From positions 372,001 through 436,000 of the forward strand of contig NZ_CP048222.1 in the NCBI RefSeq assembly GCF_010119975.1: 64,000 nt of DNA, given 5' to 3'. Below the pieces are notes generated by a model. That model ran no database searches, was not told the origin of the DNA, and saw only the letters and a list, made by a program, of their open reading frames with translations. The position numbers and the translations under genes were made by a program. Below, in pieces: positions 25,229-50,032 of this stretch (the first letter of the stretch is position 1; every line of letters starts with the position of its first letter). The DNA comes from Rhodocytophaga rosea. GTDB lineage: Bacteria > Bacteroidota > Bacteroidia > Cytophagales > 172606-1.

Positions 25229-25803
25229 GCATGGATACTTTTTTACAAACTCCCTCCCAGACGGTAGGCCCCTATTTCGCTTATGGGCTTACCCCTGAGC
25301 AATACCTATATGATTACTCCAGCATTGCTAATGGAAATCTGATTAAAAGCGAACTAGTAACAGGAGAGCGTATTACTATTTTAGGACAGGTGTGGGATGG
25401 TGCCGGAAAACTGATACCAGATGCCATGATCGAAATCTGGCAGGCAGATGCAGAAGGCAAGTATTTAAATGATCCACAATTGTTTCCTGGATTTGGCCGC
25501 CTGGGTACCGGTACACATCCTCATAATAAAGTGGAATTTCACACCATCAAACCCGGTTCCGTGAATGGACAAGCCCCCCACATCAATGTGATTGTGTTTA
25601 TGCGGGGTTTACTGGTACATGCCTATACCCGGCTGTATTTTTCTGATGAAGAAGCTAACTTAACTGATGCAGTTCTCAACGCTGTCCCGCATGCGAGAAG
25701 GTCAACGTTACTAGCGTTGAGAACAGACACGCATGGTAAAGTGGAATATCACTTTAATATTTATATGCAGGGAGAGAATGAAACCGTTTTTTTCGATCTA
25801 TAA
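25225..25803 (+). CDS. pcaG: Protocatechuate 3,4-dioxygenase alpha subunit
   Basis: 192 residues, matching known PcaG. It opens with [17 protein letters not shown], the alpha-subunit signature, and contains [17 protein letters not shown] and the [20 protein letters not shown] strand. As in other alpha subunits, the iron-ligand histidine pair seen in PcaH is not preserved (here only HIN), so this chain is structural and shapes the active site. The start overlaps the pcaH stop; a second ATG two codons later is possible. Confidence 0.92.
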
Positions 25804-28506: not shown

Positions 28507-29846
28507 ATGCACCTATACCAAAGCATTTTCTATGATAGGCAAGTATCTTCGCTTTTTTCATCTGAGAAAGTGATCCAGTATATGCTTCGGTTTGAAGGGG
28601 CGCTTGCCCAGGCGCAAGCAAATCATCGCGTAATACCGGCAGCAGCGGCGTCCATTATAGAATCTGGTTGCAAGGCCGATACTATCAATATAGAACAGTT
28701 AATACAGGAGGCTGCTTTGGGTGGAAATGTAGCCATACCCTTGGTAAAACAGTTAACAGCTCGTGTAAAAGAGAAGAATTCAGAAGCGGCTAAATATGTA
28801 CACTTCGGTGCTACCAGCCAGGATGTGATTGATACCGCTTTGATGCTGCAACTGAAAGATGCCTTTATTATCATTTCAAAAAATCTGGAAAGGCTCATTG
28901 GGCAATTAGTCTCCCTGATGAGAGCGCATACATCCACGGTTATGATTGGGCGGTCATTTATGCAACAGGCAAGACCAATTACCTTTGGTTATAAAGTTGC
29001 CGGCTGGCTGGAACCCTTGCTCCGGTCTCAACAATCCATTCAGAAATTATTAACAAATGGATTTTTACTTCAATTAGGGGGGCAGTAGGCACATTGTCGG
29101 GTATGCCTGAACAAGGTATGAAGGTAAGTGACACCATGAGTGAATTATTACACTTAAACAATCCCGGGCGTTCCTGGCATACACAGCGGGACCATCTTGC
29201 TATTTTAGCCACTACTTTAGGTATTTTAACAGCAAACATCGGAAAAATTGCCAAAGACATTAGTTTGCTGATGCAGACCGAAATAGCCGAAGTAATGGAG
29301 CCTGCCGCAGCAGGGAAAGGAGGTTCTTCCACGATGCCGCACAAAAGAAATCCGGTGGGCTGTGTCGCCATCCTGGCAAATGCCACCCGTGTACCAGGAC
29401 TTACGGCAATTATGCTTTCGTGTATGCTACAAGATCATGAACGGGCAACCGGGCAATGGCATGCAGAATGGGAAACGATGGCTGAGATCGTACAACTTAC
29501 CGCCGGGTGTGTTACCAAAGCCATAGAAGTAACCGATGGATTGGAAGTGAGAACAGAGCAGATGTTACAGAATCTGGAACTGACCATGGGTTTAATTTAT
29601 GCGGAAAATGTATCGCTTGTCTTAGCTGATAAAATTGGAAAACAAGAGGCACATACCCTTATAGAAAAATACAGTAAAGAAGCCTTACAAAAAAACATGC
29701 ATTTGCGGGAGTTACTTGTATCAAAATCAGATATTACCCGGCAGTTGAGCATTGTTCAGATCGAAAGCCTGTTTGATCCTTCCACATCAACCGGTTTGTG
29801 TGAAGAGATTGTAAACCGGCTGCTGGAACAATTTTCAACCGATTAA
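28507..29846 (+). pseudogene. pcaB: 3-carboxy-cis,cis-muconate cycloisomerase, split by a frameshift
   Basis: Two adjacent frames together form one PcaB of about 446 residues, the normal length. The first (28507-29088) ends LLQLGGQ and stops; the second continues with SGMPEQGMKVSDTMSELLHL and holds the fumarase/aspartase-superfamily signature GGSSTMPHKRNPVG. The break is in a run of six G at 29077-29082. One extra G restores LQLGGAVGTLSGMPEQG, as expected for the family. PcaB converts carboxymuconate to 4-carboxymuconolactone, so the pathway needs it. A missing base in the assembly is more likely than a true mutation, since nothing else is damaged. Confidence 0.85.
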
Positions 29847-38489: not shown

Positions 38490-38626
38490 TGCACAGAAAA
38501 AAACAATTTGATATTTGATTATTCTTATTATTTAATGTACCATCGTGCATAAGCTCTGGTTTTCCTGGAATTGACCATAAACATTTCTCCTGAAAAACGC
38601 ATAGTCCCATTTTTACTCCCGACCGT

Positions 38627-39966
38627 ATGCAAATCCTTGAATCTGCTCCCCAAACCACTCTCACCGGTAAAATCGGGAATTTCCGCTGGCGCATTGTAGC
38701 ACTGCTCTTTTTTGCGACCACCATCAATTACATCGACCGGAATGTACTTAGCTTTGTGATGGCTGACGATGGATTCCGCAGGGAAATGCTGGGTCTGGCA
38801 GCCAATACCCCTCTTACCGATGCTGATCACAGTGCATTTCTGGCAGAATATGGACGGGTAGATGCTGTTTTTAAGTTTGCTTATGGGTTAGGTTTTATTT
38901 TGATGGGATGGTTTATCGACAAGATAGGTGTACGGAAAGGATATGCAGTAGCCATTTTTTTATGGGTAGGTTCTGCTTTATCGCATAGTTTCGCCACTAC
39001 CTTTGGGCGTTTACGGCTGTTCCGGTTTACGCTGGGTATTGGAGAAGCCGGCAATTTTCCTTCTGCGATTAAAACGGTAGCGGAATGGTTTCCCATCAAA
39101 GAACGGAGTAAAGCGGTAGGTATTTTTAATTCAGGAGCCAATATTGGCATCATCTTTACAGCCGCTCTGGTGCCTGTAATTATTACTTCCTATGGCTGGC
39201 AGGCTACGTTCCTGGTCACCAGTTCATTGGGTTTTGTCCTGCTTATCTGCTGGCTGCTGGTATACCGTCGTCCGGAAGAACACCCCAAACTGGGAAAAGC
39301 GGAACTGGCTTATATTAAAAGCGATGGAGAAGACGAAACAGGCACTGTAAAAATCAACTGGTTTAAATTGCTGAGCTACCGCCAAACCTGGGCTTTTGCC
39401 TTAGGAAAATTTCTGACAGATATGGTCTGGTGGTTTTACCTGAGTTTTCTGCCCGATTTTTTCAAACAGGCTGGCACCTTTCAGCTCGATCTCAAACAAC
39501 TCTCCCTCCCCTTTATTGTAATTTATATCGTATCGGATGCCGGCAGTATTTTATTCGGATGGCTTTCCAGCAAACTCATCAGTATGGGCTGGACACAGAA
39601 TGCAGCCAGGAAACTCACCATGCTCATTTGTGCGCTTTGTGTACTTCCGGTTTTTTTTGCTTCTATTACCGAAAGTTTACCGGTTGCCGTAGCTTTAATT
39701 GCTGTTGCTGCTGCCGCCCATCAGGGCTGGAGTGCCAACTTATTCTCCACGGCTACCGATATGTTCCCTAAAAAAGTGGTGAGTTCTGTAATCGGAATCG
39801 GGGGTTATTTGGAGCCATTGGCGGTGCCTTATTCTCCTACAATGCTGGAACCATCGCCGGCACCTATGGATATTTACCCTTATTCATCATTGCCTCCTCG
39901 GCTTACCTGCTGGCATTGGCCGTTATTCAATTTTTAGCCCCTAAACTGAAACCAGTACAGCTATAA
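38627..39966 (+). CDS. ExuT-like hexuronate MFS transporter, split by a frameshift near its end
   Basis: About 446 residues if one base is restored; as written, translation leaves frame at 39804 and stops at 39937. The frame to 39804 gives twelve-helix ACS-type MFS sequence (TTINYIDRNVLSFVMADDG; GIGEAGNFPSAIKTVAEWFP). After GIGG the true C-terminus continues in the next frame (LFGAIGGALFSYNAGTIAGT, then LPLFIIASSAYLLAL) to a stop at 39966. The break is in a run of five G (39800-39804), where six are expected. It likely imports galacturonate or glucuronate by proton symport, supported by the shared operator and the uxa genes nearby. Confidence 0.82.
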
Positions 39967-40009
39967 GTGTAAGTGCTAATGCACAAATAATGACTGAAAA
40001 TGAATACTG

Positions 40010-41157
40010 CTATGCGGCACCGAAAACATAGTTCATTAATCTGTCGATCTGTTCCTGCATGTCATTCACCGACTTTTTGGCCTTAAGAGAGGCTAGTTTT
40101 GTTTCCATATCCGATAATGAATTTTCTATAAGCTGAGTCAAGTGATCAATTCCTTTTTCCTGTGGTTTTATATTTTTATACTTTTCAGGAACAGGAAATC
40201 CTACTTTATCCTGAACATTTTGCGAAACGTAGATTGGGCAGTTGAACATCAATGCAATAGTAATGGCATCGCTAGGTCGTGAATCATAATTTTTAATACC
40301 CAACTCATTTTTCAGCCTGAGGGTAGAAATAAGAATGCCATTCAAAACTTCGGTAATGAAGGCACCTTCTGGAATCAGATGATTAGTTCGAATAATTTCA
40401 GTAATGAGGTTAAAAGTCAAAGGCCTGGGGAAATCAATACCTTTCATAGCAATTAACATGTTTTCCGCTTCTTCCTTGGTGATCACCATAGACAACACCT
40501 TTGATGAATCTTCTTCATACAATAATATGCTGCAACTTTGGTTATTCTCTCCTCCGAGAATCATGTCAATTATCCTGACTTTTTTCATACTAGTTTTGTT
40601 AATGAAGTATTGTTGGTATCCTTTAAATTCCGAATCTAGTTCCAGAATTGCTTTTAATTCTTTTCTTGCCCGATGAAGTCTGACTTTTACTAACGGCTTT
40701 GAAATCAAGAGCTTATTACAAATATAATTTATACTTTTTCCTTCATAGTAAAACAGATATACCACTTCCCGGTATTCTACATCCAAGCGTTTTATCCCTT
40801 TTAGAATAATATCCACTATTTTTTCTTCTTCGACATTCTCCCGGTTGCGGAAGTCATCATAGTACTGTCGTAGTGACAAATACTTTTTTTATTATCGCGT
40901 ATATAATTTTTGCAGATATTAGTAACAATTCCGCCAAGCCAGAATTTAAAAGAGGTTTTATCTTTCAGATTGCCCAGAGAGACATACGCCTGTATGATCC
41001 CATTTTGCACGAGGTCTTTTGCCACCTCCCTATCACCCATTATTCTACTGGCTTTATCAAGGCAATATTTGTAATACTTGTCAACCAGAATATTAAACGC
41101 CTTTTTATCGCCTTTTAAGACTTTATCTATTAACTCAATCTCCTGATTGGATTTCAT
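40010..41157 (-). CDS. ECF sigma factor fused to a bifunctional-nuclease (BFN) domain, frameshifted
   Basis: About 382 residues across two overlapping frames. The first (41157 downward) holds sigma-70 region 2 (RIMGDREVAKDLVQNGIIQA; FKFWLGGIVTNICKNYIRD). The second (stop at 40010) holds region 4 (LDVEYREVVYLFYYEGKSIN; KPLVKVRLHRARKELK). A BFN/DUF151 domain then runs for about 140 residues, with the family's DSRPSDAITIALMFNCPIYV motif, and a helical tail closes it. The frames meet at a run of seven T (40884-40890; seven A on the coding strand). One added A, or a -1 slip there, gives one continuous protein. No anti-sigma gene is adjacent. The joining of these domains is unusual. Confidence 0.8.
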
Positions 41158-41593
41158 TCAATACCTTTTTACACTTAGTGGCAAAACACACCTTAAAGGT
41201 TACAAAACACTTAATAATTTATCAGGAATTTACAGATTATGCTTTTTACCGAGGATTGCCGATGATGGGCCAAAGCTTCTCAGAAACATAGAAGGCCAAC
41301 ATTCGGTTGAAGCTAATATTGAGTGTTAGCGCTTTATAGTATTTATTTTAATTATAAAAATTTAAGGAGTTCAACATATAAGCTTAATACTTCCACATCT
41401 AACTTACGGCTATAATTGCCAATTGGGTGATAAAAGCTAAGGAAGAACATTCATACAATTAACCGGAGTTTGTCATATGGAATTCTGGTTATGGAAAGAT
41501 AGTAGTCATACGTATGCCATTCCCCCTTTCCAGAGGTATAAACCAGTACGAAAGAAGAATAGTGCAGAATATAAACTTAGGAACAGTGATTCT
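41158..41593. other. 436-bp gap between sigma-BFN and uxaC
   Basis: The region is AT-rich. Part of it must carry the sigma-BFN promoter, since that gene reads leftward from 41157; the rest follows the uxaC stop. A plus-strand frame at 41477-41713 overlaps uxaC and is not believed. No repeat or RNA was recognised. Confidence 0.5.
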
Positions 41594-48870: not shown

Positions 48871-49889
48871 TCAGTCAACCTGAAAGGATAAGCCGGTCAT
48901 TTCCTCACTCAGCTTCCACAATCGCTTTGCTGCCTCTTCCTCTACCGAATAAGGCTGCACCCCTCGCAAACTGGATGGATCATCATACCTGTGTTCAATA
49001 TTTCCTGAGTCCAGTTCGGCAATATCTGCATCTTCACAATAAACGCCACCAATATGATTCAACATAGGACTGGTTGCACACCAGACGGTTGTAGCAGCAC
49101 CCTGGGGAATCGTTTTGAGTGTGGCCGCTACCTCCGGACGAATCTTACCATCGTCGCTATGGGTGCCCATTTGTTTAAATAATTCGATTGGTGCTTCACG
49201 GCCTAAATCTGTGTCATTTACAGAACCAGGATGTACAGCATACGCTCTCACCTGAAAGTATTGGCTGCGGTTATCCAGTTCAACAGCAAATAAATTATTG
49301 GCTGTTTTTGATTGTCCATATCCCAGTAATGTGGCATATTCCCTATGTTCAAAATTAGGGTCATCGAAGTTGAAAGATGCCATCTGATGCCCATACGAAG
49401 AAACATTCACTACCCTTGCGCCATGAGCCATTTTGAGGGCAGGCCATAACCTTGCAGTGAGTTGAAAATGCCCCAGATGATTGGTTGATAATTGCGATTC
49501 ATACCCACGGCTATCCCTAGCAAAGGCACCCACATGATACCAGCATTATTGATAAGCAAGTGTAATGGACGGCCGGAAGCTAAAAACTTTTCTATAAAGG
49601 TATCTATGGAAGCAGGATTCATTAAATCCATAGATGCCATTTCAACGCTTTCTAATCCTGCCAGATTTTTCTTTGCTTTATTGATATCTCTTGCCGGAAC
49701 AATAACGGTTGCACCAGCAGCAAGTAAGGTTTTGGTAGTTTCTAATCCTATGCCAGCATAGCCTCCGGTGATGATAGCAATTTTTCCGGTAAGGTCAATG
49801 CCTTTGATGACTTCTGTGGTGGTAGATGCAGCATTAAATCCTGAGCCAATTGGTTTCTGTAACGCTCCTTGATAATTATTTTGTCCCAT
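48871..49889 (-). CDS. Short-chain dehydrogenase (retinol-dehydrogenase-like), split by a frameshift
   Basis: About 339 residues once one base is restored. The first frame (49889 downward) has the Rossmann segment IAIITGGYAGIGLETTKTLL and LLINNAGIMW. The second (stop at 48871) continues GAFARDSRGYESQLSTNHLG with VVNVSSYGHQ and the LGYGQSKTANNLFAVEL active-site region. The break is a run of three C at 49529-49531 (three G in coding sense) where four are needed to give NNAGIMWGAFARDS. This is an NAD(P)-dependent SDR of the WWOX/retinol-dehydrogenase-like group; the substrate is unknown. The AraC gene downstream may regulate it. Confidence 0.8.
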
Positions 49890-50032
49890 TGTTATATTGT
49901 TTTGTACAGGACAAAAATAGAGGGTAGTAACGCTTTCGAGTTTGTTTAAAAGTCCTAATTTACTTTGTTTTAAAGGCCATATATTAATACTGATTTTGAC
50001 ACAAGATACGCTTGCCAGTTACATTCATCCTA

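Follow-up and report, generated by a model that had tools for sequence, protein, structure and literature searches.

Proteins of the BFN/DUF151 family are widespread in bacteria, archaea, and plants, and their cellular role is poorly understood. In the discussion of the TM0160 structure, Thr57, His58, and Asp115 were proposed as a putative catalytic triad; BFN-domain dimers have also been reported, and cleavage of both DNA and RNA in vitro has been reported for plant BFN proteins (PMC7249048). Trapping with the Clp chaperone CLPC1 captured plastid proteins that combine DUF151 and UVR (PMC8889267). Known ECF sigma factors with a C-terminal extension include ECF238/CorE and ECF42 with TPR (PMC8999054). 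A preliminary description of a locus in Rhodocytophaga rosea reported an ECF sigma factor joined to a BFN domain, and offered two interpretations, namely, a coupling of transcription to nuclease activity or a sensor domain that controls the sigma factor in the absence of an anti-sigma factor. In the present analysis, both the fusion and the sensor idea were supported, whereas the coupling of transcription to a nuclease was not.

Architecture of the fusion and its intact copy in Rhodocytophaga aerolata

The fusion locus occupies positions 40010-41157 on the minus strand of the window (the whole 64 kb stretch of DNA that was analysed), which lies on the contig of an 8.98-Mb single-contig genome. 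It is present as two overlapping frames, ORF1 and ORF2, with the following features.

40816-41157, minus strand: ORF1 (113 aa), which encodes the N-terminal portion of the fusion and corresponds in the alignment to R. aerolata residues 1-91
40885-41088, minus strand: sigma-70 region 2 (PF04542), in ORF1; E 1.5e-10, 41 bits, cut-off 24
40884-40890, minus strand (plus-strand T7): A7 run at the junction of ORF1 and ORF2, where the reading frame shifts by one base
40010-40888 (open frame 40013-40888), minus strand: ORF2 (292 aa), which encodes the C-terminal portion with region 4, BFN domain, and tail
40655-40807, minus strand: sigma-70 region 4 (PF08281), in ORF2; E 2.7e-9
40013-40588, minus strand: whole BFN-derived module, from a conserved Met (MKKVRI...) onward; its start matches that of standalone relatives
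40193-40528, minus strand: BFN domain (PF02577), in ORF2; E 7.8e-23, 80.9 bits, cut-off 27
40409-40426, minus strand: degenerate RPxTHD site, RPLTFN, with Phe at the position of the putative catalytic His
40013-40192, minus strand: C-terminal helical tail, not UVR, common to a standalone degenerate BFN subfamily

When the frames are read jointly, region 4 comes straight after region 2, and the domain search showed the ECF architecture, in which a short linker joins sigma2 to sigma4 and regions 3 and 1.1 are lacking. The sigma and BFN matches are both far above the Pfam cut-offs and therefore do not represent a chance frame. The domain search that the preliminary description had proposed thus found all three domains (PF04542, PF08281, and PF02577), and the SRPSDAI motif is present in the fused BFN domain, which bears out the described order of sigma regions 2 and 4, BFN domain, and helical tail. 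Its further statement, by which BFN proteins are normally standalone or bear UVR, is broadly right, as the standalone BFN protein of the window genome itself (L001) has a UVR motif (2.9e-6); the fused tail, however, is not UVR, and the domain search gave no UVR match in the fusions. No match to the SnoaL domain (ECF41-type) was obtained in the fusions in the same search, and the C-terminal domain is BFN.

R. aerolata possesses the same sigma2-sigma4-BFN architecture as a single intact frame of 380 aa (L048:5001-6143). This protein matches the full-length ECF model TIGR02937 above the cut-off (5e-25), and its BFN domain (PF02577) scores 86.4 bits (cut-off 27). The joined window protein is 40% identical to it over the full length without large gaps, and the two fusions have linkers of equal length joining region 4 to the BFN module. 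The soluble C-terminal domain is therefore joined to sigma4 within one protein in R. aerolata, although the frame in the window is broken. The intact frame and the domain matches confirm that the fusion is real; the possibility raised earlier, that the two parts are separate proteins in related genomes, did not hold in this species. The two fusion genes are located at different genome positions, and the uronate genes on either side of the window copy lie elsewhere in R. aerolata, without the fusion between them. Because copies at unrelated places, with 40% identity, keep both halves in the same order, the comparison argues for a selected fusion.

The window copy sits within a uronate-use gene group that in R. 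aerolata has no fusion, and its G+C content is 35.5%, compared with 43.0% for the window. The fusion gene, being of low G+C inside this group, may have moved.

Using a profile of the two fusions, we surveyed Cytophagales (391 genomes), the phylum (396), the class (395), a second class (294), and a second order (399). These sets overlap and form a sample of more than 1,600 distinct Bacteroidota genomes, with the best few candidates per genome scored. This survey of genomes for the same architecture, which had been suggested at the outset, gave no sigma-BFN fusion beyond those of the two Rhodocytophaga species in the >1,600 sampled Bacteroidota genomes within those best few candidates. The fusion was also absent from six other genomes of the Rhodocytophaga family and from viral-contig, phage, and plasmid collections, which were the sole reach beyond Bacteroidota. 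A contig scan with the single R. aerolata protein as query found only the query itself. A phage match that seemed to reach the BFN part was rejected; it consists of an ordinary sigma protein and then an unrelated ORF.

The fusion gene is not the only broken gene in the window. Three more genes are broken by a 1-base shift in the same sense.

38609-39970, plus strand: MFS transporter gene, 1-base break at a G run
28561-29846, plus strand: lyase gene (adenylosuccinate lyase/PcaB type), 1-base break at a G run
48871-49973, minus strand: short-chain dehydrogenase gene, 1-base break

A dioxygenase gene (25231-25803) was set aside, since its frame proved unbroken on closer inspection. In R. aerolata, the MFS gene runs intact through to the end, and the fusion gene has neither a homopolymer run nor a break at the corresponding place. 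Since the three other genes of the window are shifted in the same way, which points to assembly errors in this genome, the fusion gene most likely owes its break to such an error as well, and not to programmed frameshifting. One alternative is that the gene in the window is genuinely a pseudogene or encodes two proteins, sigma2 alone (ORF1) and sigma4-BFN (ORF2), as the deposited frame is broken and stops bound ORF2 just upstream of the junction. We consider this unlikely in view of the one intact frame in the sister species, the three further genes with the same 1-base break in the same 64 kb, and a downstream frame that is open for 292 codons and conserved up to the C-terminus. Programmed -1 frameshifting or transcriptional slippage, which would give the fusion part of the time, would fit a break located exactly at the A7 run and a shift of -1 sense. 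Such a mechanism is nevertheless highly improbable, given that R. aerolata has no run or break, that the zero-frame codons AAT AAA AAA do not make a standard X XXY YYZ slippery heptamer, and that the other broken window genes make a technical cause likelier.

Sigma relatives and a promoter-like motif

Both halves of the fusion occur unfused, mainly in one other Bacteroidota family (f163), as seen in a search of the order of genome G672. Five unfused ECF sigma factors match the sigma part (L189-L193), of which four are from family f163 and one is from G1666 of family f27; three of the five gave E values of 1e-45 to 1e-49 under a sigma-only profile.

An ECF promoter consists of two short elements with a spacing of 16 bases, the first of which contains AAC. 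In the 250 bases upstream of both fusion genes, we found a common TGTAACCTTT-N12-GCCACT of this form, located 17-19 nt before the ATG.

41177-41204, minus strand: TGTAAC-N16-GCCACT, a motif resembling an ECF promoter, 19 nt upstream of the ATG; R. aerolata has the same motif, likewise placed

The plain best-28 identity of the two upstream regions is not significant alone, whereas the bipartite motif is. The exact motif has only two occurrences in each Rhodocytophaga genome, one of them at the fusion gene, and the control gave one each. In the form TGTAAC-N15/16-RCCACT, the motif is present upstream of all seven sigma genes of the subfamily (two fused and five unfused); in the five unfused genes, which were not used in defining it, the distance to the predicted start is 44 to 265 nt. 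The chance of such a promoter-like motif is about 8e-5 per 250-base upstream region, although RCCACT and the N15-17 class were widened after the sequences had been seen; this makes the statistic weaker but leaves the picture unchanged. Among 2.7 million fetched bases (both strands, redundant), the remaining matches fall in two loci that had been fetched for the pattern, and the control gave two. Because the motif stands upstream of 7/7 subfamily genes, the sigma part is probably functional, and probably still reads the subfamily promoter and activates its own gene.

With a looser motif, the matches in the two Rhodocytophaga genomes showed no clear excess over a reversed control that would indicate a regulon; most of them fall inside coding frames, and no target beyond the fusion gene itself was evident in this search.

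The BFN-derived domain and its standalone relatives

The fused BFN domain was aligned with 54 ordinary BFN proteins from Cytophagales, family f163, Bacteroidales, Actinomycetota, and Thermotoga, and with four standalone f163 proteins (L194, L196, L197, and L198) that match the BFN module along its full extent, from the first Met through the tail. The position of His58 (TM0160 numbering) is His in all 54 ordinary proteins and in none of the six fused and standalone degenerate ones: both fusions have Phe, and the four standalone relatives have Phe or Tyr. Residue 59, which is Asp or Glu in every ordinary BFN protein, is lost in five of the six, and the Thr57 position is Val in the R. aerolata fusion. 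By contrast, Asp115 and the RPSD motif are retained in both fusions. The putative triad of TM0160 is therefore not complete in the fusions. The LPIxIG strand motif is also lost in the fusions; its conservation was assessed with a filter that favored the TH motif, whereas the His58 counts are unfiltered.

Because all six proteins are without the putative catalytic His58, which is invariant in the ordinary BFN proteins, a nuclease role of the fused domain is unlikely. That the domain is a dead nuclease is a strong prediction from the alignment rather than a fact, as the catalytic triad itself is a proposal from structure. We also considered that nuclease activity persists in the BFN domain and is delivered to RNA polymerase or to target promoters or transcripts. 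The PF02577 match far above the cut-off, the retained RPSDA with Asp115, and the cleavage of DNA and RNA by plant BFN proteins in vitro (PMC7249048) are in line with this explanation, and with Asp115 and RPSD in place, activity by another mechanism would be conceivable. However, the loss of His58 in 6/6 against its presence in 54/54, together with the loss of Thr57 in R. aerolata and of the LPIxIG strand motif, makes an active nuclease very unlikely, and the coupling of transcription to nuclease activity was not borne out.

In a tree of 60 BFN sequences, the two fused and four degenerate standalone proteins group together with support of 100/99 against the 54 ordinary ones; the grouping is likely, although the branches are long. 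The standalone degenerate proteins and the fused module have a common start, MK[KR]V[RQ]I, and a common helical tail. No sigma gene of this subfamily was found adjoining ordinary or degenerate BFN genes when such neighbors were looked for, and the genomes with the closest unfused sigma factors are not those in which the standalone degenerate module was seen. The standalone genes (L194:1489-2109; L196, L197, and L198), whose products no longer have the THD site, lie in partly conserved surroundings that include a hydrolase and a phosphohexomutase-like gene. Ordinary BFN genes adjoin MerR regulator genes in Gordonia (L113:673-2903), and on a Runella plasmid (L116:1501-2688) one adjoins a TetR regulator gene.

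Inside the fusion, the BFN module starts with the conserved Met of MKKVRI (window 40588; L048:5568), a possible internal translation start. This feature bears on another explanation, namely, that the BFN module has a separate function, is also made alone from the internal Met, and was joined to the sigma factor by a neutral accident. Both fusions have the Met at the module start, as do the standalone relatives, and only two species are known to have the fusion. Nevertheless, these two species, with 40% identity and unrelated genome positions, have conserved the sigma part and the promoter as well as the module, and we regard a neutral accident as quite unlikely.

Proposed built-in regulation and comparison with known systems

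We consider it fairly probable, well short of certain, that the protein is an ECF sigma factor with a built-in regulator, made up of a BFN-derived domain that is probably catalytically dead and a helical tail. The sigma part would bind core RNA polymerase and activate its own promoter, TGTAAC-N16-GCCACT. By analogy, the pseudo-BFN domain would sense a ligand (small molecule) or a partner via the former substrate pocket or dimerization, and would hold or release sigma2/sigma4 in place of an anti-sigma factor. Inspection of the neighboring frames, both in the window and in R. aerolata, revealed no recognizable anti-sigma gene beside the fusion. The idea of a sensor domain that controls the sigma factor without an anti-sigma factor thus gains support from a real fusion in two species, the absence of a recognizable anti-sigma gene alongside, and the conserved sigma-type promoter, and is the best available reading. 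The structure model of the fusion is poor (mean pLDDT of 50) and supports no claim about a domain interface. A variant acting through proteolysis may be envisaged from the CLPC1-trapped DUF151/UVR proteins; the fusions, however, have no UVR motif. More tentatively, and on balance doubtful, the degenerate BFN could be a sensor derived from a dead nuclease, with the Rhodocytophaga fusion as one-protein signal transduction and the standalone f163 copies perhaps as free regulators of related sigma factors or of RNA polymerase. Because the promoter of the sigma factor can be predicted, its natural fusion to a probably dead BFN domain would offer a reporter-based way to find what the domain senses, and is a new, testable handle on the poorly understood BFN/DUF151 family.

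Compared with BFN/DUF151 proteins (PF02577; TM0160, Rv1829, and plant BBD proteins), the fused domain is similar in its profile match, in its alignment to TM0160 (9e-10), and in retaining Asp115/RPSDA, but differs in being joined to a sigma factor, in the loss of His58, and in having no UVR. The standalone degenerate BFN subfamily resembles the fused domain in its start, lost His, and helical tail; unlike it, these proteins are unfused and not beside a sigma gene of this subfamily. The unfused sigma factors L189-L193 are the closest sigma relatives and have the same promoter-like motif, whereas they end in a short tail of about 45 aa where the fusion has the BFN module. An ECF sigma factor from a Tolypothrix sp. 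PCC 7910 plasmid (L117:1986-2810) also combines a related sigma core (115 bits) with a C-terminal module; this module, however, is a ClpX-type C4 zinc finger (zf-C4_ClpX, PF06689, 1.3e-12) and not BFN, and the match is weaker than those of the unfused Bacteroidota relatives. With the described ECF sigma factors that have a C-terminal extension (ECF238/CorE and ECF42 with TPR), the fusion shares the sigma2 and sigma4 core, a soluble C-terminal domain, no recognizable adjoining anti-sigma gene, and probable autoregulation, but its extension is derived from BFN, which is not named among the extensions or groups of that review (PMC8999054). The fusion would add BFN as a new module among the ECF sigma factors that carry their own regulator.
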